A DNA stretch of 21,379 nucleotides, taken from the IMG/VR virus record IMGVR_UViG_3300006789_000218, positions 1-21,379 of that record. One strand, given 5' to 3'. Each line of letters starts with the position of its first letter. Within the stretch, counting starts at the first letter, position 1. The position numbers and the translations under genes were made by a program. This DNA is from a virus. Shown here in pieces: positions 1-13,226 of the stretch. Under the pieces are notes generated by a model. That model saw nothing but the letters and a program-made list of their open reading frames with translations. It searched no databases and was not told the origin of the DNA.

Positions 1-1669
1 GACATTCATGATCTGGTTCCTCGTCTGGTTCTGGTGGCGGAGGTGGTGGGGGTGGTGGGCAACAATTCGCATTATAAAGCGGATCATTGATTATACAATT
101 CTGTTCTGGATCATTTAATACTACTCCTGATATATTATAACTTCCATAATTATTTCCTCCTCCTGTGAAATTAAAAATATTACAAGTATAATTACCCATA
201 GCTAGACCGTTTGTTTGGAAATTACTTTGTGTAAAATCATTTGCAGGCATACTTGAAACTATTCCTGTTCCTACTGTTTGTGTAACAGTCCCTGCCGCTC
301 CATCATATATTCCAGCATGTACAACAACAGCATTACCATCTGTAACAGACCATTCATAATATGCATTTGGTCCAGTTGATGCTGGGAGTGGATCAAGACA
401 ATCTATAGTCCAAACTATACTTCCGTCAGAATTATTACCATAACAAGCACCAGTTGCATTACTACAATCAAATATTGGCACGCTAATAACGACTGGATCA
501 CAACTTAACCCTACCCAACTTGGAACTTGAACTGGTATTATCGGAGGACAGGGATTTACTTGCCCCGGCACTCCAGGACTACAAAGATGTGTTGCTGTTC
601 CTATATAAGACTTCAAAAGTATACCATTCAGAGTTGGATCATTGGCTTGTATCCATGTTTCAAAATCATATAAAGTATCAGCTGGTGTTCCCCCATAACC
701 AGTATTAGTTATTAGATCTAATATGAATTCGTTCCATTCTGTATAAACCCAACCATTTCTATTTATAAGAGTTGATCCATTTAATGCTGGGTTATTTATA
801 TTATCTAACATTAGTGCAAAATAATGAAATTGTCCAGTACAATACTGACCTGATGCTGTATCAGTACACTGACAACAATTTCCACCACAGAAAGACGCAT
901 CACAAGCTTTAAATCGAATAGTACGTACATCCTGATCTCTTAATGCATGCATTGGTTCAGATATATAACTTAATAGTCGCAGACCACTAGTATCCCAACC
1001 TGCTGGTGGAGGACCAGGAGGTAGATCATTTACACAATTTAGATTCGATGCTAATCCGGGGCCACAATTTACTGCATCATCACAAAAAGAATCAGGACAA
1101 CCCATACAGATGTTTGTTCTATCAACTGGATTTTGTCCCGCCATTGGTCCACATGACCAATCCATAGGAACATTATTTCCTGGTGCAAATATAACACCCG
1201 CTCCCCAAGGTGCGCCCGGATTGGTTTCTATTGGGCCAAACTTCTGTTCATATTGATAGATTGTATAGTTATTTGTTTCCAGAGGAAATTCCTCTACGTA
1301 TACGTTTGGTTCAGGTAATCTATCCTGAATAGCTTTAGTTCTATCTACAAGTGAAGCTGTATCATCACTGAAGCTTACTGAAGCGTTTGCTGCCGGATTA
1401 TACTCTTGAGAGTTTCCAAATAGTGCAGTCCATTCTAGTTCAGTATATCCTGCTAGCTTTGCTCTATTAAATCCTAAAGGTCCTACTATAGACTCTTTAT
1501 TTACAACAAATGGATCTATTTCAGTTCCTATTGCTTTTGTATCAAGATTAGTATGGGTAATATTACCCTCTAAAGTAAGGATGTCTAAAACCGCCAAAGC
1601 TCTGTCAGCGTCCGCCTGGGTATCCATCATTACGGTTCCTATCCCTGGTATGATTACTGGTATTGCCAT
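1..1669 (-). CDS. Large Cys-rich phage structural (tail-type) protein, C-terminus off the window
   Basis: An uninterrupted reading frame of 556 codons starts with ATG at 1669 and runs off the left edge. The start overlaps the stop of the upstream gene by one base (TAATG), which suggests translational coupling. The first ~165 residues contain no cysteine. From residue ~173 there are more than 20, some clustered (C188/C191/C196; C261, C265, C266, C268), with many Gly, Asn, Pro and aromatic residues. Residues ~437-520 resemble a beta-sandwich/PKD-like extracellular domain (tyrosine-rich, followed by a WSVTDG-type stretch). Residues 538-546 are nine consecutive prolines followed by an acidic segment, likely a hinge to a further domain outside the window. 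Size, composition and position at the end of a leftward operon with an HU-like gene suggest a tail, fibre or baseplate protein. No specific family is recognised. Confidence 0.8.
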   Translation of the reverse strand, partial: MAIPVIIPGIGTVMMDTQADADRALAVLDILTLEGNITHTNLDTKAIGTEIDPFVVNKESIVGPLGFNRAKLAGYTELEWTALFGNSQEYNPAANASVSFSDDTASLVDRTKAIQDRLPEPNVYVEEFPLETNNYTIYQYEQKFGPIETNPGAPWGAGVIFAPGNNVPMDWSCGPMAGQNPVDRTNICMGCPDSFCDDAVNCGPGLASNLNCVNDLPPGPPPAGWDTSGLRLLSYISEPMHALRDQDVRTIRFKACDASFCGGNCCQCTDTASGQYCTGQFHYFALMLDNINNPALNGSTLINRNGWVYTEWNEFILDLITNTGYGGTPADTLYDFETWIQANDPTLNGILLKSYIGTATHLCSPGVPGQVNPCPPIIPVQVPSWVGLSCDPVVISVPIFDCSNATGACYGNNSDGSIVWTIDCLDPLPASTGPNAYYEWSVTDGNAVVVHAGIYDGAAGTVTQTVGTGIVSSMPANDFTQSNFQTNGLAMGNYTCNIFNFTGGGNNYGSYNISGVVLNDPEQNCIINDPLYNANCCPPPPPPPPPEPDEEPDHEC

Positions 1670-2079
1670 TATACGTATCCTAGTACTGGGTCACATCCAA
1701 CCATTCCCCTTAATTCTATTTGTGTTCCTGGGGCTGGTGCTACTGACGGATTAATAACTGAAGGATCTATATCATCTATATTAAGTCCCCATACAGCAGG
1801 TGGATTTAAAGGCCCTGCAATTCCTAAAACCCATGCATTAGGGTCAGTCATAGGAATAGTCCTAAAAGGTAGATTATAGGTCATCTGAGCTGCATTAAGC
1901 ACTATATCTAATATATTTTGCTCGGCTACTAGTTGACCAGCATATGCTCTTACCCCTCTCTCATCGTTGTTTGAGAAGGCTGCATTTTTTGCAAGGTTTA
2001 CTTCTCCCATTAGCCGTTCAAGATAAACTGGGGCGCTATAGGGTAAGTATATATTAGCTGGATCTCCGCTTTGTGGCAT
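1669..2079 (-). CDS. Unknown 136-aa protein in the structural operon
   Basis: A 136-residue protein of unrecognised family. The N-terminal half is helical in character (about residues 15-70, with several Ala, Glu and Asn). The C-terminal half is rich in Pro, Gly, Ile and Asp and looks like loops or beta-structure. There is no signal peptide, membrane segment or nucleotide-binding motif. Its ATG overlaps the stop of the HU-like gene by one base (TAATG), and its own stop overlaps the start of the large Cys-rich protein in the same way, so the three genes are very probably translated in series from one leftward mRNA. That placement makes a minor virion or tail-assembly protein a reasonable guess, but nothing in the sequence proves it. 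Confidence 0.75.
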   Translation of the reverse strand: MPQSGDPANIYLPYSAPVYLERLMGEVNLAKNAAFSNNDERGVRAYAGQLVAEQNILDIVLNAAQMTYNLPFRTIPMTDPNAWVLGIAGPLNPPAVWGLNIDDIDPSVINPSVAPAPGTQIELRGMVGCDPVLGYV

Positions 2080-2291
2080 TAGGCTGTATTTTTATTAATT
2101 ATATATAATCTCTTTGGTTTAACTTTAAATACTCCAAAATGATGTAATCTCACTTTAGCGCATTCTCCTTCTTCAATTTTCTCCTGGACAAACTTAAACT
2201 GAGATTTAACTATACTTTCTATAACATAAGTTGGTAGATCGTATTTCTCAGCTAGATGTTCCAAAATATCTGCGTGATTCTTTTCAATCAT
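2079..2291 (-). CDS. HU/IHF-like DNA-binding protein
   Basis: A 70-residue basic protein with the layout of the HU/IHF family. An N-terminal helix pair (about residues 5-40, containing IVKSQFKFVQEKIEEG) is followed by the family's turn into the beta-sheet, where VRLHHFGVFKVKPKR matches the conserved Gly-Phe/Val-Phe-basic pattern of HU. It is shorter than the usual ~90 aa and lacks most of the long DNA-clamping beta arm, so DNA bending may be weak or it may act as a dimerisation partner. The family binds and bends double-stranded DNA. The gene sits between structural genes, with a 3-nt gap upstream and a 1-nt overlap downstream, which suggests a role in genome packaging or condensation, or in late expression, rather than host-type nucleoid work. 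Confidence 0.7.
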   Translation of the reverse strand: MIEKNHADILEHLAEKYDLPTYVIESIVKSQFKFVQEKIEEGECAKVRLHHFGVFKVKPKRLYIINKNTA

Positions 2292-2294
2292 GTT

Positions 2295-2624
2295 TTACTT
2301 ACATCGGTGGTAAAATAGTACCTCCCCATCTGATATATCACATGATTCAATATTCATTGCCCACATAGTATGACCCCCCCTTGCTGAGTCTAATGTTATT
2401 GTAGTTATTGGATTTTGATTTATTGAATCTACTATAGGCTCACCTTTCCATACTATATTAGACAATACAGTTGTTGAAGCACTAGTTGGATGAGCGAATG
2501 TATAATCACCCGCAGGTAAACTTTTCCCATCTACCACATGTACGCCTCCACATCCTCGTACTGGAGTATTATTAGTTTGCAGTTTTAATGCTGCTAATAT
2601 TCTTGAATTATTATCTATTGCCAT
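2295..2624 (-). CDS. Unknown 109-aa protein, probably structural
   Basis: A 109-residue protein with no recognised family. It starts MAIDNNSRILAAL and continues with Thr/Ser/Gly/Val-rich sequence typical of beta-structured virion proteins, including a VHVVDGK...LPAGDYTF segment and a Thr-rich stretch near residues 72-80. No signal peptide or transmembrane segment is seen. It lies 3 nt upstream of the HU-like gene and 24 nt downstream of the tRNA on the same strand. A head-decoration, head-tail or tail protein fits the context, but this is inference from neighbours and composition only. Confidence 0.7.
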   Translation of the reverse strand: MAIDNNSRILAALKLQTNNTPVRGCGGVHVVDGKSLPAGDYTFAHPTSASTTVLSNIVWKGEPIVDSINQNPITTITLDSARGGHTMWAMNIESCDISDGEVLFYHRCK

Positions 2625-2648
2625 TATTCTTATCTTTTATTAAATTAG

Positions 2649-2720
2649 TAGCGGGTGAAGGAATCGAACCTCCGGCTCCGGCTAATGAAACCGGCGAGTT
2701 CACCATTACTCTAACCCGCG
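2649..2720 (-). tRNA. tRNA(CAU) with initiator-like features
   Basis: A complete 72-nt cloverleaf can be folded by hand on the minus strand. The acceptor stem is CGCGGGU/ACCCGCU with only position 1 unpaired (C1xU72). The D stem is GAGU/ACUC with an 8-nt loop containing GG. The anticodon stem is CCGGU/GCCGG with loop UUCAUUA, anticodon CAU. The T arm is GGAGG-UUCGAUU-CCUUC and the discriminator is A. CCA is not encoded. The unpaired 1:72 position and the A11:U24 pair are hallmarks of bacterial initiator tRNA. However, only two of the three diagnostic G:C pairs of the anticodon stem are present (31:39 is U-G), and position 37 is U rather than the usual purine. It could therefore be initiator-like, an elongator tRNA-Met, or a tRNA-Ile2 precursor. 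It lies inside the leftward operon between two protein genes. Confidence 0.9.
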
Positions 2721-2723
2721 ATA

Positions 2724-3119
2724 TTATACTGCCTTCCCTCCTTCAATGTTGTGGGTCTTAAAATGCGCCGTATCTGGTTCAAGTGCTAATTTATCTTTTG
2801 CCTCATACCATTTAGTTCTGCATATATTAAGTTCCGCAAAATCGAATGTATCCTTCCAAGGGTCTTTCGTACTCTTTATACCTCCCATACCCCTAGCTGT
2901 AAACAAATAGCCTGCTGGATTACCTGAAGGGTCTTGAATGGTCCATAATCTTCTTGGAGTACCATCCTTAAGCTCTTTTAGATAATGCACTGTTAATTTA
3001 TGCTTATCTATGTAATCTCTCACCACTTGCTGATCAACTACACTTGCTGGCACTGATGCTCCAGCACAGCAGCTTTCTAATGATAAGGGTTGTTCTATCT
3101 CTTTCTTTTCTTCGTCCAT
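2724..3119 (-). CDS. Unknown 131-aa protein, first gene of the leftward operon
   Basis: A 131-residue protein with no recognised family. The acidic/charged N-terminus (MDEEKKEIEQ) is followed by a small Cys/Ala/Ser stretch (CCAGAS, about residues 17-22) and a mixed alpha/beta body containing RRLWTIQDPSGNPAGY and a C-terminal HFKTHNIEGGKAV. There is no signal peptide or membrane segment. It is the first gene after the leftward promoter box at 3170-3177 (about 40 nt of leader) and ends 3 nt before the tRNA. The position suggests a late virion or morphogenesis gene. The CC pair does not by itself indicate metal binding. Confidence 0.75.
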   Translation of the reverse strand: MDEEKKEIEQPLSLESCCAGASVPASVVDQQVVRDYIDKHKLTVHYLKELKDGTPRRLWTIQDPSGNPAGYLFTARGMGGIKSTKDPWKDTFDFAELNICRTKWYEAKDKLALEPDTAHFKTHNIEGGKAV

Positions 3120-3230: not shown

Positions 3231-3263
3231 TATTTAGAGATGCAGACCATTATTGAAAACTCC
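3231..3263 (+). promoter_or_regulatory. Diverged copy of the 34-bp rightward module
   Basis: The start (TATTTAGA) and middle (GCAGACCATTA) resemble the three modules at 3931, 4167 and 4447. The end differs and lacks the TTTGG. It sits at the start of the rightward RNA/gene cluster, back to back with the leftward promoter, and may be the first promoter of that cluster. If so, transcription begins close to 3265, which favours the downstream ATG at 3340 for the next gene. Confidence 0.3.
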
Positions 3264-3339
3264 CCCCGGTCAACAAAGAAGATTGAATCCCCCCACGTCG
3301 AAAACTGATTTAGATCTATCACCTTTTCTGAAGATAGAT

Positions 3340-3624
3340 ATGGTAGATACAATTCAACCTATCGTTACTTCACCAGCAGTAGATACTACTCCAGCCGTTA
3401 AGGTAGAGTACATCTCTGTTGATGGTCCTTACACTCGTAAGAAAGATGGTGCACTAATCATGTTCTGTAGACAAGAACGTGATGTATCATTCGACTTGGA
3501 GACAGGGGAGATGATTGACGACACACAGTCGTGGATGCTTCCTTACACTCCTGAGAAGATGGACGCTATCCAAGGTATGATTGCCAAGTTCGGCAAGGTA
3601 TACCGCACGATACAGTCGAAGTAA
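3340..3624 (+). CDS. Unknown 94-aa protein
   Basis: A protein of 94 residues starting MVDTIQPIV. The N-terminal ~20 residues are rich in Thr, Pro, Ala and Val and probably flexible. The rest is charged alpha/beta sequence containing CRQERDVSFDLETGEM and a C-terminal helix (TPEKMDAIQGMIAKFGKVY). The family is not recognised. The frame stays open upstream to an ATG at 3253, but that extension crosses two C6 runs, looks non-coding and lies in the suspected promoter, so the start at 3340 is preferred. The gene uses noticeably more GC-rich codons than its neighbours. It is followed by two hairpins and an intrinsic terminator and therefore looks monocistronic. Confidence 0.65.
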   Translation: MVDTIQPIVTSPAVDTTPAVKVEYISVDGPYTRKKDGALIMFCRQERDVSFDLETGEMIDDTQSWMLPYTPEKMDAIQGMIAKFGKVYRTIQSK

Positions 3625-3634
3625 CGGGAACTAA

Positions 3635-3691
3635 CTATCCAGCCAGATAGAATGTTCTGAAGTCATGATACACTTCATCAATCAGTATCAT
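3635..3691 (+). ncRNA. Structured 3' region: two stem-loops before the terminator
   Basis: Directly behind the stop of the 94-aa gene lie CTATC-loop-GATAG (3635-3650, loop CAGCCA) and ATGATAC-13 nt loop-GTATCAT (3665-3691), then the terminator at 3695. There is no reading frame here. It may be a 3'UTR-derived small RNA or mRNA-stabilising structure; no known RNA family is recognised. Confidence 0.45.
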
Positions 3692-3694
3692 ACA

Positions 3695-3753
3695 CCACTC
3701 TCGAAGGTTACTAAGGAACTACGCCTAAAGCCGATGTGAGAGTGGTTTTTTTT
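3695..3753 (+). terminator. Intrinsic terminator with a large apical domain
   Basis: CCACTCTC (3695-3702) pairs with GAGAGTGG (3738-3745) and is followed directly by eight T. The 35-nt loop is much larger than in a simple terminator, so the hairpin may carry a further structured domain. Confidence 0.75.
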
Positions 3754-3775
3754 ATTCACCAAAAGATTAACTATT

Positions 3776-3919
3776 ATGCCTATAGAAGAAACGTACAACT
3801 GTAACCAATGTTGGGACTTAATACCACATCCAGGTTTATGTCCTACTTGCGAGGTTGAAGAAGCATCTTTAATTGAGTATGCTGAACAACTAAAAGAAGA
3901 AGAAGAAGAAGAGAGTTAG
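3776..3919 (+). CDS. 47-aa zinc-ribbon microprotein with poly-Glu tail
   Basis: ATG at 3776 opens a 47-codon frame that ends at TAG 3917-3919. Residues 9-12 (CNQC) and 22-25 (CPTC) form two CxxC knuckles 9 residues apart, the pattern of a small zinc ribbon. The C-terminus is helical and ends in six Glu and a Ser. Such proteins usually bind nucleic acid or a protein partner; the acidic tail makes protein binding or DNA mimicry possible, but this is inference. The gene is flanked by terminators on both sides and is a separate transcription unit or part of a read-through unit. It is too short for many gene finders, but the double CxxC and the tight fit between terminators support it. Confidence 0.65.
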   Translation: MPIEETYNCNQCWDLIPHPGLCPTCEVEEASLIEYAEQLKEEEEEES

Positions 3920-3933
3920 TCTCTTCTTTTTTT
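3907..3933 (+). terminator. Terminator whose stem is made by the poly-Glu codons
   Basis: AGAAGAGA (3907-3914) pairs with TCTCTTCT (3920-3927) across a 5-nt loop GTTAG, followed by a run of T to 3933. The 5' arm lies in the last coding codons of the zinc-ribbon gene and the stop codon TAG lies in the loop and its edge. Confidence 0.8.
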
Positions 3934-3964
3934 ATTTAAATCTATTTACCTGTACTTAATTTGG
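3931..3964 (+). promoter_or_regulatory. 34-bp module A (putative promoter)
   Basis: First of three similar modules. It shares TTTATTTA-R-ATCYA at its start, ACCTnTACTTAA in the middle and TTTGG at the end. It begins in the T tract of the preceding terminator and is followed by gene-free structured sequence. The end resembles a -7 box with one base missing (TTAATTTG for TAnnTTTG). Confidence 0.5.
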
Positions 3965-4169
3965 ACGCTGGGGACAAAACGCAGAAGGACTCGTTAATAG
4001 AGTTTGGAGTGAAAGAGTCAATGTAAGCAGAAGCTAGAGCATTGGTTATCGTAGTAACTCCATTTACCGCTCAATAAAAAAGTTTACTCTTTATGAGTAA
4101 CGAAGTAGGAACATTCTAAGCTAAGAACGATGGTGCACCGTCTCCCTGGGCTTCAGAGTGTTTTTTTTT
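3965..4169 (+). ncRNA. Candidate structured small RNA, unit 1
   Basis: About 200 nt with no plausible reading frame, bounded by module A and an intrinsic terminator. Visible stems: GACTC/GAGTC (3988-3992 with 4015-4019), GGTTA/TAACT (4044-4048 with 4054-4058), TTACTC/GAGTAA (4084-4089 with 4095-4100) and the branched terminator. No known RNA family is recognised. A discrete promoter-RNA-terminator arrangement argues for a stand-alone transcript, with a length near 200 nt. Confidence 0.55.
4110..4169 (+). terminator. Two-tier intrinsic terminator of RNA unit 1
   Basis: AACATTCT (4110-4117) pairs with AGAGTGTT (4155-4162), AAGC with GCTT, and an inner hairpin GATGG-TGCA-CCGTC (4129-4142) caps the structure. 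A T run follows to 4169. Confidence 0.8.
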
Positions 4170-4200
4170 ATTTAGATCCAAGACCTTTACTTAACTTTGG
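4167..4200 (+). promoter_or_regulatory. 34-bp module B (putative promoter)
   Basis: Second module copy. It ends in TAACTTTGG, which contains a perfect TAnnTTTG -7 box, with TTTA about 17 nt upstream as a weak -33 element. It starts inside the T tract of the preceding terminator. Confidence 0.55.
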
Positions 4201-4449
4201 GAGGTTAAGAGTTGTTCTCTTGTAATTGACGACTTAGAATGTGGTATAGAGTCCACTAGAAGTTATTGTATTGATGAAACCATAAGAACTCACAGAATGT
4301 ACAATAGAAGTCCGACAGAAGGTCTAATTCATAAAAGATGTCTTCCTCCCAAGTAAAGAACTAGTGTTGAGTGATGTGTGTGTGAGACACAGTAAAGACA
4401 GTATTACGACCTCTGAGTAAATGTAAGAGTTTACTGTCTTTATTTTTTT
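4197..4449 (+). ncRNA. Candidate structured small RNA, unit 2
   Basis: About 250 nt without a gene. A closing stem TTGGGAGG (4197-4204) with CCTCCCAA (4345-4352) would enclose AAGAG-TTGTT-CTCTT (4207-4221) and a multibranch domain closed by GACTT/AAGTC (4231-4235 with 4308-4312) holding GTGG/CCAC and TATTGTA/TACAATA (4264-4270 with 4300-4306). Then come a GTGT/ACAC hairpin and the terminator. The 5' arm of the closing stem overlaps the end of module B. If module B is a promoter starting near 4203, that arm is only partly transcribed, so either the stem or the start site needs revision. Confidence 0.55.
4393..4449 (+). terminator. Intrinsic terminator of RNA unit 2
   Basis: TAAAGACAGTA (4393-4403) pairs perfectly with TACTGTCTTTA (4432-4442), 11 bp, followed by a seven-T run. 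The T run merges into module C. Confidence 0.85.
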
Positions 4450-4480
4450 ATTTAAATCTATGACCTTTACTAAAGTGTGG
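4447..4480 (+). promoter_or_regulatory. 34-bp module C (putative promoter)
   Basis: Third module copy. It is nearly identical to B over TTTATTTA through ACCTTTACT but ends AAAGTGTGG instead of the TTTGG of A and B. It lies 250 nt upstream of the 241-aa gene and would give it a long leader. Confidence 0.45.
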
Positions 4481-4688
4481 TATGTGTGTGTATCATTCGT
4501 CTACTTGTATCTCGAATTACATTCCTATTCGTGTGTAAAAACAACTCAACACTTAAAGAACTAAACGATTTAACGAAAATAAGAGTATTCTTAGACAGTG
4601 TATACTCACACACCTACCATTTTAACTAACATTTTAATCATTGTTATTACAGTATATTAGTATATATATAGCTAAAGTTGTAATAACA
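4479..4688 (+). promoter_or_regulatory. Structured ~250-nt leader of the 241-aa gene
   Basis: GGTA-GTGTGTG (4479-4490) can pair with CACACAC-TACC (4607-4618), closing a ~140-nt domain. A second hairpin TGTTATTAC (4642-4650) with GTAATAACA (4680-4688) has a 29-nt AT-rich loop. No gene is visible. This could be a cis-regulatory leader or another small RNA ahead of the gene. Confidence 0.4.
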
Positions 4689-4731
4689 CCAAAACCGAAG
4701 AGAACAATGTGATAACCGTTCAACATTAACA

Positions 4732-5457
4732 ATGGATGTAACAAAAGTAAAACAATTCGTAACAAACTTACCTGAAAATGAATGTGCAGCTATCGCTGTG
4801 ACTCGTATTAAAGACGATAAAAAGACAGGTGCAAAAACATTTCAAGTAGAGTTTGGACACAAATTAACAGATACAAAAGTATCAACAAATTCAGGTACTA
4901 ATTTCGTACAATTAGCACAAGCTTCTAACCCTTCATTTACACCTTCTTCAGGTTGTAGAAGAGTATGGTTAAACTTTATGGAGCCTGAATTACATCAGTA
5001 TTTTCCTCAAATAGATAAGAATGCAATAGCACAATTACCTATCAGAACTACTAGTTCTGCAGGACCTGGTATCTTTATAGGTACTGTTAGTCCAAGTATA
5101 ACACATGCTGGAGTAGAAAAGTATTTCAGAATATGTGTGAATGAGGTATTTGAATCAGATGCAAATGAGTATGAGCTACAAAACATAGAGTCTCAAGCTA
5201 AAAAGGCAGGTTCAACAGGTAGAATGATTAAGGGTATGAATCCTAATACTAACCGTGTTGAACATATCTTTAGTAGAACTATGTTAAAGGCTGCAACTAG
5301 AGATGAGAACGGTGTGTATGCCAACGAGAATGGTTGGAAACACAACGAAATTGAAGAGTATGTAGGTGATGTGGATGTTTATTCTACTACTGAAACAGGT
5401 GTTGAGTTCAACACTAATACAGGAGAAATAGTGACTTCTACACCTTCACTACAATAG
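4732..5457 (+). CDS. Unknown 241-aa protein, monocistronic
   Basis: A soluble 241-residue protein with no family I recognise. The N-terminal half has alternating hydrophobic/charged beta-type segments (AAIAVTRI, FQVEFGHK). The middle holds a GPGIFIGTVSPS segment and a VEKYFRICVNEVFE helix-like stretch. The C-terminal third is acidic and Thr-rich (VGDVDVYSTTETG). There are no Walker, zinc-binding or membrane motifs. The gene stands alone: a long structured leader precedes it and an intrinsic terminator follows 18 nt after its stop. Isolated, well-translated genes of this type in an RNA-rich early-looking region are often host-takeover or abundant accessory proteins, but that is inference. A single-strand- or RNA-binding role cannot be excluded. 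Confidence 0.8.
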   Translation: MDVTKVKQFVTNLPENECAAIAVTRIKDDKKTGAKTFQVEFGHKLTDTKVSTNSGTNFVQLAQASNPSFTPSSGCRRVWLNFMEPELHQYFPQIDKNAIAQLPIRTTSSAGPGIFIGTVSPSITHAGVEKYFRICVNEVFESDANEYELQNIESQAKKAGSTGRMIKGMNPNTNRVEHIFSRTMLKAATRDENGVYANENGWKHNEIEEYVGDVDVYSTTETGVEFNTNTGEIVTSTPSLQ

Positions 5458-5475
5458 TTAAACTGGCTGGATAAT

Positions 5476-5520
5476 GAACTTGAGAGTGTGTGATGCACTC
5501 TCTTGTTCTTCCTTTTTATT
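5476..5520 (+). terminator. Intrinsic terminator after the 241-aa gene
   Basis: GAGAGTG (5482-5488) pairs with CACTCTC (5496-5502) around a 7-nt loop. An outer GAAC/GTTC pair (5476-5479 with 5505-5508) extends it, followed by CCTTTTT. Confidence 0.8.
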
Positions 5521-5549
5521 AGCCATCAATCATTTAAAATAAATAAATT

Positions 5550-5783
5550 ATGAAATCAAGTCTCAAACATTTTGGAGATGTATTTATTACATCTATAGCG
5601 TATCTTGCAATGATAGCAGCACCAATTATTATCATATTAGTTATACTTCGTGTAATTGAAACAGGTAGTGGATTAGTTGATCTGGTTCTTATCATGTTCT
5701 TATGTGTAATAACATTAGTAGCAAGAGTAATTAGCCGTGAGGGTTTATTAGCTCACAACAAAGGCGAAAGAATATTCTTTTAG
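5550..5783 (+). CDS. Two-TM small membrane protein
   Basis: A 77-residue protein dominated by two hydrophobic helices, about residues 11-35 (AYLAMIAAPIIIILVIL) and 42-60 (LVDLVLIMFLCVITLVA), joined by a short polar turn. The C-terminal tail is charged (ISREGLLAHNKGERIFF). This is the shape of a small inner-membrane protein with both ends on the same side. Holins and superinfection-exclusion proteins often look like this, but no lysin is adjacent, so the role is open. The start codon follows A-rich sequence with no clear SD. It lies between the terminator at 5476-5520 and a long series of RNA structures. Confidence 0.65.
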   Translation: MKSSLKHFGDVFITSIAYLAMIAAPIIIILVILRVIETGSGLVDLVLIMFLCVITLVARVISREGLLAHNKGERIFF

Positions 5784-5800
5784 TCTTATAAATATAAAAT

Positions 5801-5863
5801 AACCGTGATGACCATTCTCACCCTTTCACTACTTGTTTTGTCGTAACAAGAATGCGAGCGGTT
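5801..5863 (+). ncRNA. Nested stem-loop behind the two-TM gene
   Basis: AACCG (5801-5805) pairs with CGGTT (5859-5863). Inside, CATTC/GAATG (5813-5817 with 5850-5854) and TTGTT/AACAA (5833-5837 with 5845-5849) stack with a 15-nt bulge. No poly-T follows, so it is not a classical terminator. Candidate 3'UTR structure or start of a larger RNA. Confidence 0.4.
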
Positions 5864-5870
5864 AACTTAT

Positions 5871-5967
5871 AAAGATAGAAGAGTTTATGGTGTAGCGACT
5901 GCGCTCCCATATGAATGAGATTAGGCATAGTCTCAAATTAAGACTGATCATCTCTTTATCTATCTTT
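5871..5967 (+). ncRNA. Candidate RNA with a three-way junction
   Basis: AAAGATAG-AAGAG (5871-5883) pairs with CTCTT-TAT-CTATCTTT (5952-5967). Inside are two clean hairpins. The first is TATGG...CCATA (5886-5890 with 5907-5911) carrying AGCG-ACTG-CGCT. The second is GAGATTA-GGCA-TAGTCTC (5917-5934). A 17-nt single-stranded joiner links the second hairpin to the closing stem. Three helices closing exactly inside one another in 97 nt is hard to get by chance. No gene overlaps on the plus strand, and no known family is recognised. Confidence 0.55.
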
Positions 5968-5974
5968 ATCTCAT

Positions 5975-6090
5975 AAATAAAAGGTGTCTGAGCGTTGGTG
6001 GTTATTAATGTAATATGCCCTGGACCCGCACACTGACTTAATAGAGAATGGAAAAACATATGCGTTACGCAGTCTCTACCTTTTATTTTT
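5975..6090 (+). ncRNA. Candidate RNA closed by an 11-bp terminator stem
   Basis: AAATAAAAGGT (5975-5985) pairs perfectly with ACCTTTTATTT (6078-6088), followed by further T. The ~90 nt inside contain TATTA-ATG-TAATA (6003-6015) and TGCG-TTA-CGCA (6061-6071). The whole 115 nt could be one transcript domain or an ornate terminator. No reading frame of note on the plus strand. Confidence 0.5.
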
Positions 6091-6096
6091 AACTAT

Positions 6097-6167
6097 AATA
6101 ACTATTTATATTAACTGTAGATAAACCCAGCTGTGGTTTTGAAGGTTAGTATGAATAGTTGTTTTTA
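6097..6167 (+). terminator. Long hairpin with T run
   Basis: Three stacked helices: AATAACTATT/AATAGTTGTT (6097-6106 with 6154-6163, one G-U), ATATTAAC/GTTAGTAT (6108-6115 with 6145-6152, one G-U) and AAACC/GGTTT (6123-6127 with 6135-6139). A T-rich tail follows. It can act as a terminator and separates two RNA domains. Confidence 0.6.
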
Positions 6168-6172
6168 TTATT

Positions 6173-6366
6173 TTGAACACATTAACCCATGTCCAGAGTC
6201 TACACTAACTAATCAGGAACGATTAGGCGTCACAGTGTGTGTAAAGCTGGTCACGGATTGTAGATAAACAAAGTTCGCTGTCTCTATTGTGCACGCAAGT
6301 GTATCAAGGCCAGTTAGTAGTGTATTATTTAGAATTTGACTGCAAATAAAGGTTGTGTGTGTTCAA
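6173..6366 (+). ncRNA. Candidate ~190-nt RNA with GNRA-capped arm
   Basis: TTGAACACA (6173-6181) pairs with TGTGTTCAA (6358-6366), and AACC (6184-6187) with GGTT (6351-6354), across an internal loop. Inside: CTAATC-AGGAAC-GATTAG (6209-6226), TGCAC-GCAA-GTGTA (6290-6303) with a GNRA tetraloop, CTGG/CCAG, and an alternative long-range pairing ACTAACT/AGTTAGT (6204-6210 with 6312-6318) that competes with the first hairpin. No gene is visible on either strand. Competing pairings are typical of regulatory RNAs but may also be chance. Confidence 0.5.
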
Positions 6367-6369
6367 TCT

Positions 6370-6439
6370 GTATGAGTCAGTAATAGTATTGTTTGGGTCT
6401 CACAAGGGCCTATAACTAACGCTATTACTAGACTTATAC
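6370..6439 (+). ncRNA. 17-bp stem-loop upstream of the lipoprotein gene
   Basis: GTATGAGTCAGTAATAG (6370-6386) pairs with 6422-6439 over 17 bp, interrupted by one bulged A (6430) and containing one G-U. The 35-nt loop contains GGGTCTCACAAGGGCC. It starts 3 nt after the preceding RNA domain and ends 32 nt before the next start codon. It lacks a T run, so it reads as a leader structure or separate RNA rather than a terminator. Confidence 0.55.
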
Positions 6440-6471
6440 TATAAAATGAATGTAGAATTAAAACAATAGAT

Positions 6472-7325: not shown

Positions 7326-7333
7326 TATCTTTG
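7326..7333 (+). promoter_or_regulatory. Bacteroidota-type -7 box before the tRNA-like element and RNR operon
   Basis: TATCTTTG is an exact TAnnTTTG match in a gap between genes. Transcription would begin near 7340, about 45 nt upstream of the tRNA-like element and 175 nt upstream of the RNR start. No clear -33 element is seen. Confidence 0.5.
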
Positions 7334-7385
7334 CTACCCTTTTGATTGAACTCAACACTACAAAACAATACAACTATGTATTTGT

Positions 7386-7478
7386 GGAGTAGGCAATGTT
7401 GGAATGTGCTTCAAAGAGAGAGTATACATGGTGCTCGAAATAGAATTCTATTTTAAGGTTCGAATCCTTGCTACTCTA
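7386..7478 (+). tRNA. tRNA-like element (non-canonical or decayed), 93 nt
   Basis: The ends fold like a tRNA. The acceptor is GGAGTAG/CTACTCT (one G-U) and is followed by A. The T arm is TAAGG-TTCGAAT-CCTTG with a standard T loop. A perfect 16-nt palindrome (7438-7453, AAATAG-AATT-CTATTT) sits where the long variable arm of a class II tRNA (Leu/Ser/Tyr) would be, and 93 nt fits that class. The middle does not fit. Positions 8-9 are missing or merged with a 3-bp D-like stem GCA/TGC (7393-7395 with 7407-7409). Ten unpaired bases precede a possible anticodon stem GAGTA/TGCTC whose loop TACATGG has A instead of the near-universal U33. The amino acid cannot be assigned. Confidence 0.5.
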
Positions 7479-7513
7479 TAAATACATTTATAAATAATAA
7501 AAAAGAAGAAGAA

Positions 7514-11575: not shown

Positions 11576-12784
11576 ATGAAAGCTAATGAAGTAAAAGATA
11601 AGGTCCAGAGAGAGGGCCTTAACAAATGGTGGTCTCGCTTTAACGGTAAGGGCACCCTTCAATATGCTACAGGTGTGGGTAAAACCAGATGTGGTGTATT
11701 AGCGGCTGCTTTAATAGCAAAAAGAGTGGGTATGGATTGTAAAATTCTTATCCTTACTCCTACCCAAACTATTAGAGACAGGTCGTGGAAAGAAGAGTTT
11801 AAGAAATGGGATGAAGAGTTATTATTTGAATCATGTGTTAAGACTGTATGTATACAGACTGCATATAAATATACTGGAGAACAGTATGATTTAGTAATAG
11901 CTGATGAGATACATAATTATATATCTCCTGAATATTTTAATTTCTTTTCAAATAACCATAGTCCAAGAGTATTGGGACTAAGTGCTTATATAGACCCAGT
12001 TAAACTTAGATTATTAACAGCTGTAGCACCTATCTGTGCAAAGGTAAGTACTGCAGAAGCTAGTAAATTAGGATTAATTAGTGAATATAAGATATATAAC
12101 ATACCCTTAAAATTAAGCGGAACTGAAAAACAATCATATACAAGTGCTAATAATAATTTTAATAGATTATTTAGTATTTTTGATAAAGATTTAAAACTTA
12201 TGTATGCATGTATGAAACCAGCTACATATAATCAGTTCCTTTTACGTAAAGGTATGAATTTAGATGAGGAGAATAAAACGTTTCCTTATCAATGTAATGC
12301 TGCAATGGCTAAACGCAAGAAGATATTATATAATGCTTCCGCTAAAGTTACTGCAGTTCAACAACTATGTGATATGTATTCCGAGAGGAAAACAATCATC
12401 TTTTCTCAAACTATAGACTTTGCTGACAAAGTTTCTGAAGCGCTTGGTGATACTTGTGTTAGTTTTCACAGTAAGATAGGTAAGAAAGCAAGAACTGCTA
12501 ACTTAGATAAACTTATTGATAACAGAACTAAAGTAACAAGGATTTCAACTGCTAAAGCTTTGAACGAGGGCATGAATGTCCCGGATATTTCAATGGCTAT
12601 TATAGCCAGTGGAACTAGTAAAGTTAAAGACTTAATTCAACGAATCGGTAGAACCGTTAGATGGGAAGAAGGTAAGCAGGCGCTTATTTTTCATCTATAT
12701 ATTGAAGGTAGTCAAGAAGAGAAGTGGGTTAATTCCGCGCAAGATGGACATAGTGTTGAGTTAATGAGACTAGAGCAGAGCTGA
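11576..12784 (+). CDS. Superfamily 2 DNA/RNA helicase
   Basis: A 402-aa ATP-dependent helicase of the SF2 (DEAD/DEAH-like) type. Motif I ATGVGKT (31-37), motif Ia LILTPTQT (58-65), motif II DEIH (110-113) and motif III-like GLSAY (134-138) form the first RecA-like domain. TIIFSQT (273-279), LNEGMNVPD (329-337) and the motif VI QRIGRTVRW (355-363) mark the second. It resembles T4 UvsW-type and phage SNF2-like helicases used in replication-fork restart and recombination; the exact subfamily is uncertain. It starts 11 nt after the polymerase and is followed by a structured RNA region instead of the next gene. Confidence 0.9.
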   Translation: MKANEVKDKVQREGLNKWWSRFNGKGTLQYATGVGKTRCGVLAAALIAKRVGMDCKILILTPTQTIRDRSWKEEFKKWDEELLFESCVKTVCIQTAYKYTGEQYDLVIADEIHNYISPEYFNFFSNNHSPRVLGLSAYIDPVKLRLLTAVAPICAKVSTAEASKLGLISEYKIYNIPLKLSGTEKQSYTSANNNFNRLFSIFDKDLKLMYACMKPATYNQFLLRKGMNLDEENKTFPYQCNAAMAKRKKILYNASAKVTAVQQLCDMYSERKTIIFSQTIDFADKVSEALGDTCVSFHSKIGKKARTANLDKLIDNRTKVTRISTAKALNEGMNVPDISMAIIASGTSKVKDLIQRIGRTVRWEEGKQALIFHLYIEGSQEEKWVNSAQDGHSVELMRLEQS

Positions 12785-12815
12785 AGCTATTAAAATTCAG
12801 ATAACCTGGCCAGCG

Positions 12816-12945
12816 CTGAACTGCTCTAGGCCTCATTATTTAAAGATATTTGCAACAAGTTCAGTTGCAGAGCGGGGACACATAAAATTGTGCGCTATAG
12901 TGTCCAGAGCAGTCTCATAGCAAGTTAGTGGTTTTTCGTGCTATG
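12816..12945 (+). ncRNA. Structured RNA between the SF2 helicase and the zinc-ribbon gene
   Basis: The 205-nt gap has no gene but an ordered set of helices. A closing stem ACTGCTCT (12820-12827) with AGAGCAGT (12906-12913) encloses TGCAAC-AAGTTCA-GTTGCA (12851-12869) and GGACAC/GTGTCC (12876-12881 with 12900-12905); the last abuts the closing stem directly. A third hairpin, CATAGCA/TGCTATG (12916-12922 with 12939-12945), follows. The loop AGTTCA can also pair with TGAACT (12817-12822), giving a pseudoknot or a switch because that segment overlaps the closing stem by 3 nt. GATATTTG at 12845-12852 is a one-mismatch -7 box, so transcription could also start inside. No T run follows. Candidate riboregulator, cis element or small RNA. 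Confidence 0.55.
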
Positions 12946-12989
12946 TAGACAGTCTCCTTAACTTAATTATTAACCTAAAATCAAATGTT

Positions 12990-13226
12990 ATGTCATATGA
13001 TAACTGGAAACTCGCATCACCTGATGACGAGGGACCCCATTTAGTAAGCCCTTGCTGTGGCGATGAATACAGCGAAAAAGACTTTATTACAGAAATGGGA
13101 GAACAGTATATATGTAATAAATGTAATGAACTGTTTGATTACCCTGAAGAAGATCATGAGCATGCAGATAGAATGCGTGAAAATGCTCTAGAGGATCGGA
13201 TGGATGAAGATAGACTCGAAAAATGA
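12990..13226 (+). CDS. Small zinc-ribbon protein, 78 aa
   Basis: A 78-residue acidic protein with a treble-clef/zinc-ribbon pattern: PCCGDEY (C22, C23) and CNKC (C42, C45). The C-terminal third is very acidic and helical (EEDHEHADRMRENALEDRMDEDRLEK). Zinc ribbons of this size are common in phage replication regions and usually bind nucleic acids or a polymerase partner; the acidic tail favours a protein partner. Its stop overlaps the next start by 4 nt (ATGA), indicating coupled translation. Confidence 0.7.
   Translation: MSYDNWKLASPDDEGPHLVSPCCGDEYSEKDFITEMGEQYICNKCNELFDYPEEDHEHADRMRENALEDRMDEDRLEK

Follow-up and report, generated by a model that had tools for sequence, protein, structure and literature searches.

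What does a phage genome keep in a gene-poor stretch when the rest of its sequence is packed with genes? We addressed this for positions 3625-6471 of IMG/VR virus record IMGVR_UViG_3300006789_000218, analyzed over its full 21.4 kb (21,379 nucleotides (nt); here "the window"). An initial annotation, made from the letters alone, had described the region as a cluster of structured non-coding RNAs in repeated units of promoter, RNA and terminator, and its scarcity of genes is confirmed here: it holds only three plausible open reading frames (ORFs; 3776-3919, 4732-5457 and 5550-5783) and is ~39% coding. The second of these encodes a 241-amino acid (aa) protein and is referred to as the hub gene. 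Our analysis indicates that two early trans-acting RNAs of this locus, RNA1 and U3, probably control the mRNAs of the hub gene and of a downstream ribonucleotide reductase operon by base pairing. We infer that these RNAs are made, that they pair, and that pairing represses or activates their targets. Features are on the plus strand unless stated otherwise.

RNA1 and U3 are complementary to phage mRNAs encoded elsewhere

Relatives of the locus were found by protein and pattern searches. About a dozen IMG/VR contigs of marine crAss-like phages share it, at the point where late and early genes meet (L001/L084, denoted G001; L085, G002; L014/L086, G008; L083; and L093-L101, with G004 being L097 and G006 being L101), and they split into two clades, A, which includes the window, and B. 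Hub proteins are 71-79% identical within clade A and ~30% identical between clades. We compared seven non-coding blocks from seven genomes of both clades, all against all, and identified five clusters of reverse complementarity of at least 9 nt present in at least six of the seven genomes. One cluster joins RNA1 to the 3' untranslated region (UTR) of the hub gene, and the other four join U3 or the end of a helicase gene to the leader of the hub gene or that of the reductase operon. Control searches with reversed or complement-only sequences returned GT repeats or nothing, and same-strand searches returned the motif's own copies. Conserved complementarity to targets encoded elsewhere, one mark of trans-acting phage small RNAs, was found for both RNA1 and U3.

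RNA1 (3625-3753) forms the 3' UTR of the first early gene and ends in a branched terminator. Its segment 3636-3646 (TATCCAGCCAG), located in a small local hairpin, is complementary to CTGGCTGGATA at 5463-5473 in the hub 3' UTR (5458-5530), where the target adjoins the 5' side of the terminator-like hairpin ending the hub mRNA. The complementarity is kept in 7/7 genomes, reading TCCAGCCAG/CTGGCTGGA in clade A and ATCACACC(A/T)GAT/ATC(T/A)GGTGTGAT in clade B, and within clade B a single A-U to U-A exchange is seen in G004. Both sides have changed in 4 of 12 pairs, and 93.3% of alignment cells are paired compared with 25-37% when the two sides are slid against each other. None of 500 shuffles reached the observed percentage paired and covariation score. 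Duplexes swapped between clades lost 10-15 kcal/mol in most combinations, with the native combinations favored. When RNA1 duplexes were ranked genome-wide, the true site stood at rank 1-3 in five genomes and outside the top 8 in G001 and G002, so the ranking alone is no proof. Because the target adjoins the terminal hairpin of the hub mRNA, an effect of RNA1 pairing on termination, read-through or decay of this mRNA is plausible.

U3 (4361-4449) is a small RNA consisting of a 5' segment, a hairpin and a branched terminator. Its segment 4362-4372 (TAGTGTTGAGT) is complementary to ACTCAACACT at 4544-4553 in U4, the ~250-nt structured leader of the hub gene (4481-4731), and to ACTCAACACTA at 7350-7360 in the leader of the reductase operon (7326-7513), which also carries a promoter-like box (TATCTTTG) and a tRNA-like element. 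The four sites share one 11-nt sequence, which U3 and the helicase end carry as UAGUGUUGAGU and the two leaders as ACUCAACACU(A). The complement of the U3 sequence is found in the hub leader in all seven genomes and in the reductase leader in six; in the seventh (G006/L101, CTCAACGCT) the match is retained through a G-U pair. In L093 and L094 the margin has changed in both partners (CCTCAACACTA with TAGTGTTGAGG). In the near-complete genomes G001 and G002, the two leaders are the only sense-strand sites of the target 9-mer CTCAACACT. Structure prediction leaves the reductase target open (P 0.26-0.90 for an 8-mer, within the top 2-16% of the transcript) and the hub-leader target moderately open.

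At the end of the helicase gene (12751-12842), a second TAGTGTTGAGT copy (12751-12761) is followed by a ~20-bp hairpin with an alifold z score of -6.5 and mostly invariant pairs. This copy is coding, and its invariance at the codon level is only marginal evidence, since 12 of the 31 codons that could be compared vary just as little. Overall, pairing in trans is well supported, for a sequence-only study, in the case of RNA1, moderately supported for U3 and weakly supported for the helicase copy.

Comparison with relatives supports RNA structure in the locus

At least ten strong hairpins or multibranch structures had initially been described in the region. Measured by energy this count did not hold up, as 100-nt windows average a folding z score of -0.85 in the region compared with -0.96 and -0.77 in coding stretches, and only 6351 (z -5.5), RNA1 and a few others are exceptional. 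Folding energy was dropped as proof of RNAs, the region being equal to coding background. Of the checks that the initial annotation had named, compensatory substitutions across homologues are clearly present, and energies are not below those of shuffled sequence overall. We consider the cluster to be real, and it is the comparison with relatives, not folding energy, that carries the evidence.

In that comparison RNA1, U3 and RNA5 (6186-6452) covary strongly, compensatory change is also seen in the U4 leader, and the predicted structures of RNA2 (3965-4164) and of the hairpins at 5784-6185 are unsupported. RNA1 has an alifold z of -12 with two-sided change in 13 of 29 pairs, and RNA5 a z of -11.5 with two-sided change in 23 of 54; the U4 leader and the tRNA-like element score -3.4 and -2.5, all of these z values being best taken as a ranking since their null is a column shuffle without a phylogeny model. 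The structure of the hub 3' UTR was not significant in the alignment used. For U3, two-sided change is found in 10 of 21 pairs and 95.9% of cells are paired, the count being reached by 1 of 500 shuffles and falling to at most 2 when slid. These U3 counts come from a hand-made structural alignment that was checked against the sequences, and such an alignment leans to its structure; a MAFFT alignment masked the structure (z -1).

That the RNAs belong to no known family, as first thought, agrees with our scans. Rfam 15 at gathering score returned nothing in the window except one tRNA outside the region, and permissive Rfam scans of the region in the window and L085 gave only sub-threshold, chance-like matches. 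A link to the Ro60/Y RNA system was looked for and rejected, the TROVE domain (PF05731) being absent from six related records. We have high confidence that the structured RNAs are real.

A promoter-like module is repeated within the locus

The five ends in T-runs described at the outset are indeed present, near 3746, 3925, 4156, 4443 and 5513. Directly after most terminators, and also ahead of the first early ORF, lies a 30-bp promoter-like module (approximate consensus TTTAGATCYATGACCTTTACTTAATTTTGG), whose repetition is seen as the direct-repeat families D1 and D2 of the region. These repeats, the confinement of the module to the locus and the comparison with relatives bear out the proposed units of module, structured RNA and terminator; the comparison also backs the idea that short transcripts may be made early.

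All module scans used leave-one-genome-out matrices. Copy 1 (3309-3338), just before the first early ORF, scores 31-32 bits in the window, G001 and G002. Copy 2 (3935-3964) is weak (6.1 bits) and contains a one-base shift inside the module, and copies 3 (4171-4200) and 4 (4451-4480) score 38.5 and 38.4 bits. On both strands of 86-88 kb relatives the top matches are all locus copies (31-40 bits), with the next at 20 bits or less. Crass-like phages inject an RNA polymerase together with their DNA and use it to transcribe their early genes (PMC10136315, PMC8375218). From their position the modules are putative promoters, most likely for this virion enzyme. Scans for sigma-70 promoters and simple terminators gave no excess over shuffles, as expected if the promoter is not of the sigma-70 type and the terminators are branched, and sigma-70 promoters were dropped as an explanation. 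The promoter of Bacteroidota hosts carries TAnnTTTG at -7. Similarly, the modules at 4171 and in G002 contain TAACTTTG/TAATTTTG, and TATCTTTG stands ahead of the reductase leader; in contrast, the other module copies lack this motif, and the upstream GATCYANNNACC part of the module is equally conserved and locus-specific.

Three of the units between modules are constant, namely the first ORF with RNA1, U3, and the U4 leader with the hub gene. The cassettes between them vary. In the window they comprise a 47-aa ORF (3776-3919) with its own terminator after it and RNA2, a gene-free unit with a T-run end seen in the window only; a different ORF is found in G002, G008, L083 and G004, and nothing in L100. 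Both the module and the terminator of U3 are present and conserved. The variable 5' part of the U3 unit (RNA3a, 4201-4360) is homologous in G006 and elsewhere replaced by another RNA, an ORF or nothing.

Other elements of the locus and its setting

The first early ORF (3340-3624) had been listed as a 123-aa ORF from 3253, which is over-extended: in clade B the upstream frame is broken and the start is the ATG at 3340. A strongly conserved C-rich element (ATGCAGACCATTATTGAAA...CCCCCCACGTCGAAA) occupies 3241-3309 at the late/early divergence. It lies in an open coding frame in clade A, and because this frame is broken in some clade B genomes the element may act as DNA or RNA.

The hub protein has no Pfam, PHROG or phage homologue. 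Its structure model has a mean predicted local distance difference test score of 63 and matched nothing in the PDB at E<=0.001, with one weak match to an unnamed viral protein. A tentative early identification as a single-strand DNA-binding protein was withdrawn. A profile search with the hub protein, together with a relaxed tRNA-like pattern, added no further contigs, and no convincing homologues of the locus RNAs were found in 81 other loci.

Downstream of the hub gene, a 77-aa membrane-protein-like ORF (5550-5783) is kept in relatives. It is followed by several predicted hairpins (5784-6185) with little or no homology in relatives; for RNA2 and 5784-6090, homologues are absent or very weak. 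A hairpin at 5800-5866 is similar by eye to one at ~392-468 of L093 (AACCG...CGGTT around CATTCT/AGAATG or CATTTC/GAAATG), and shows matched changes between the two, in too few copies for testing.

RNA5 is a large structured RNA with a long 3' hairpin (6370-6439), which is 98.8% paired in ten sequences with two-sided change in two pairs only. A ~30-nt terminal hairpin (~6387-6420) has been swapped as a unit between genomes that are otherwise near-identical or divergent. Identities in the 5' part and the apex are 100% and 58% for the window and L095, 64% and 98% for the window and L096, 77% and 100% for G004 and L099, and 90% and 57% for L100 and G006. This mosaic suggests exchange or diversifying pressure. 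A pattern search for RNA5 in bacterial genomes gave no match.

The tRNA-like element of the reductase leader (7386-7477) has acceptor-like ends, a T-arm and a long variable arm but lacks a standard tRNA fold, and is conserved in 14 contigs. It was rejected as a canonical tRNA: neither ARAGORN at default settings nor the Rfam tRNA model called it, and calls at half threshold had poor scores. Beyond the helicase hairpin is a second structured stretch (12840-12990), ~94% identical in G002 and G008 and 74% in the more distant L094. It is possibly mobile, being absent from G001 and G004 despite the copy in L094.

Minus-strand genes occupy 1-3119 of the window, and a tRNA-Met (CAT) lies amid the late genes at 2648-2720 on the minus strand. 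Plus-strand genes after the locus encode ribonucleotide reductase, DNA polymerase I, helicases, primase and an rIIA-like protein. The related contigs of 86-88 kb (G001, G002 and G006) share this layout. G002 encodes crass-type capsid, portal and terminase, the capsid being 44% identical to that of cr118_1, and G002 and G006 both encode a giant protein bearing DFDID, a motif of crass RNA polymerases. The RNA cluster is thus located where late and early genes meet in a marine crAss-like phage. These capsid, portal and terminase families and the DFDID polymerase, which define Crassvirales, place the relatives G002/G006 in that order; the window is a fragment without these genes and is tied to Crassvirales through its early genes and polymerase. 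No phage of the searched collection gave a close DNA match to the window.

Discussion

We propose that the locus consists of early transcription units in series, each made of a promoter-like module, a short RNA or small ORF, and a terminator. RNA1 would pair just upstream of the hairpin that terminates the hub mRNA, and U3 with two leaders, that of the hub mRNA and that of the ribonucleotide reductase operon. Made early, these RNAs would determine how much of the hub protein and of the reductase/polymerase/helicase operon is expressed, or when. Our guess is that pairing at the leaders would repress or control stability, and that pairing at the hub 3' UTR would alter read-through or stability. 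Of the roles suggested initially, regulation of neighboring genes is the one favored by conserved complementarity to two phage mRNAs; we found nothing in support of anti-defense decoys or host-takeover RNAs, for which the swapped hairpin of RNA5 leaves room.

Several observations weigh against control by pairing. The seven genomes fall into two clades, so the compensatory changes represent few independent events, and the number of two-sided pairs between RNA1 and the hub 3' UTR is, taken alone, matched by 30 of 500 shuffles. RNA1 and hub 3' UTR segments are predicted to be mostly closed, and the seeds only moderately open, less so than the leader targets. The targets lie away from ribosome-binding sites. 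L098 shows no matched change at the margin of the U3 seed and target, and since seed and targets are near-invariant, pairing is inseparable from a bound sequence motif except by such margin changes.

The structured RNAs could instead be cis-acting mRNA ends only (terminators, 3' stabilizers and protective leaders), with complementarity incidental or a by-product of shared sequence. RNA1 is after all the 3' UTR of the first ORF, U3 is the 3' UTR of a small ORF in L096, both end in terminators and U4 is a long leader. We nevertheless think this unlikely, given that U3 is a stand-alone unit of ~110 nt (module, RNA and terminator) without an ORF in G002/G008, L100 and G004, and that complementarity is kept where the sequences differ and is absent from the controls. 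An almost invariant 9-11-mer with a copy inside the helicase coding sequence might also be expected if TAGTGTTGAGT/ACTCAACACTA were a protein recognition sequence, on DNA or RNA and in both orientations, with no contact between RNAs. Such a site would not account for the strict orientation, in which a small RNA and the end of a gene carry the seed and two leaders carry the target, nor for the G-U-compatible change in G006/L101 and the matched margin change in L093/L094, and it leaves RNA1 and the hub 3' UTR unexplained; we judge it quite improbable. Finally, the pairings could be intramolecular. The reductase-polymerase-helicase mRNA would then pair end to end, and U3 would reach the hub leader only where a read-through transcript carries both. 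The reductase leader and helicase end, which lie at opposite ends of what is probably one operon, show complementarity over 11-15 nt in 6/7 genomes, and U3 lies ~175 nt upstream of its hub-leader target. There is however no reason for two unrelated cis pairings to share one 11-nt sequence, and the helicase copy is coding, with the marginal codon evidence noted above, which makes this arrangement highly implausible in our view. Trans-acting control by RNA1 and U3 is thus the reading we prefer. A broader model, rather doubtful as a whole, is a self-contained RNA regulon of crass-like phages, built on early RNAs from the injected polymerase. U3 would bind the hub mRNA at its leader and RNA1 would bind it at its 3' UTR, the leader of the DNA-replication operon would be bound as well, and RNA would in this way coordinate the switch from early to middle genes; the exchangeable hairpins of RNA5 would reflect conflict with hosts or with competing phages.

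Regulatory RNAs are known from other phages, including lambda OOP, P22 sar, VP882 VpdS and lambda PreS (PMC12197685). Like RNA1 and U3, these are short phage-encoded RNAs thought to base-pair, and OOP and sar target the phage's own mRNAs (PMC12197685). Unlike them, OOP and sar lie opposite the genes that they target and belong to temperate phages, whereas the RNAs described here come from separate loci of a virulent-type crass-like phage; VpdS and PreS differ in being Hfq-dependent (PMC12197685). Particular to the present case are two leaders sharing one target sequence and, from sequence alone, compensatory change between RNA1 and its target. Thermus phage P23-45 offers a parallel for the modules, with a pre-early region that its virion RNA polymerase transcribes, a promoter motif confined to that region and a conserved motif at several terminators (PMC10770324), and crass-like phages likewise inject an RNA polymerase for early genes (PMC10136315). 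The motif there is different, however, no base-pairing RNAs were reported, and the modules here are only putative promoters. We found no report of non-coding or regulatory RNAs in crass-like phages in the open-access literature searched. Because phage regulatory RNAs exist, the kind is known (PMC12197685). The RNAs themselves, their crass-like setting and their targets in the phage's own early and middle mRNAs appear to be new.

The module described here is a concrete candidate for a promoter used by the crass virion RNA polymerase. Crass-like phages rank with the most abundant phages in the human gut, and to our knowledge the timing of their early and middle genes is poorly known. RNAs that would base-pair with the phage's own mRNAs, with compensatory change between separate genes, offer a directly testable circuit.

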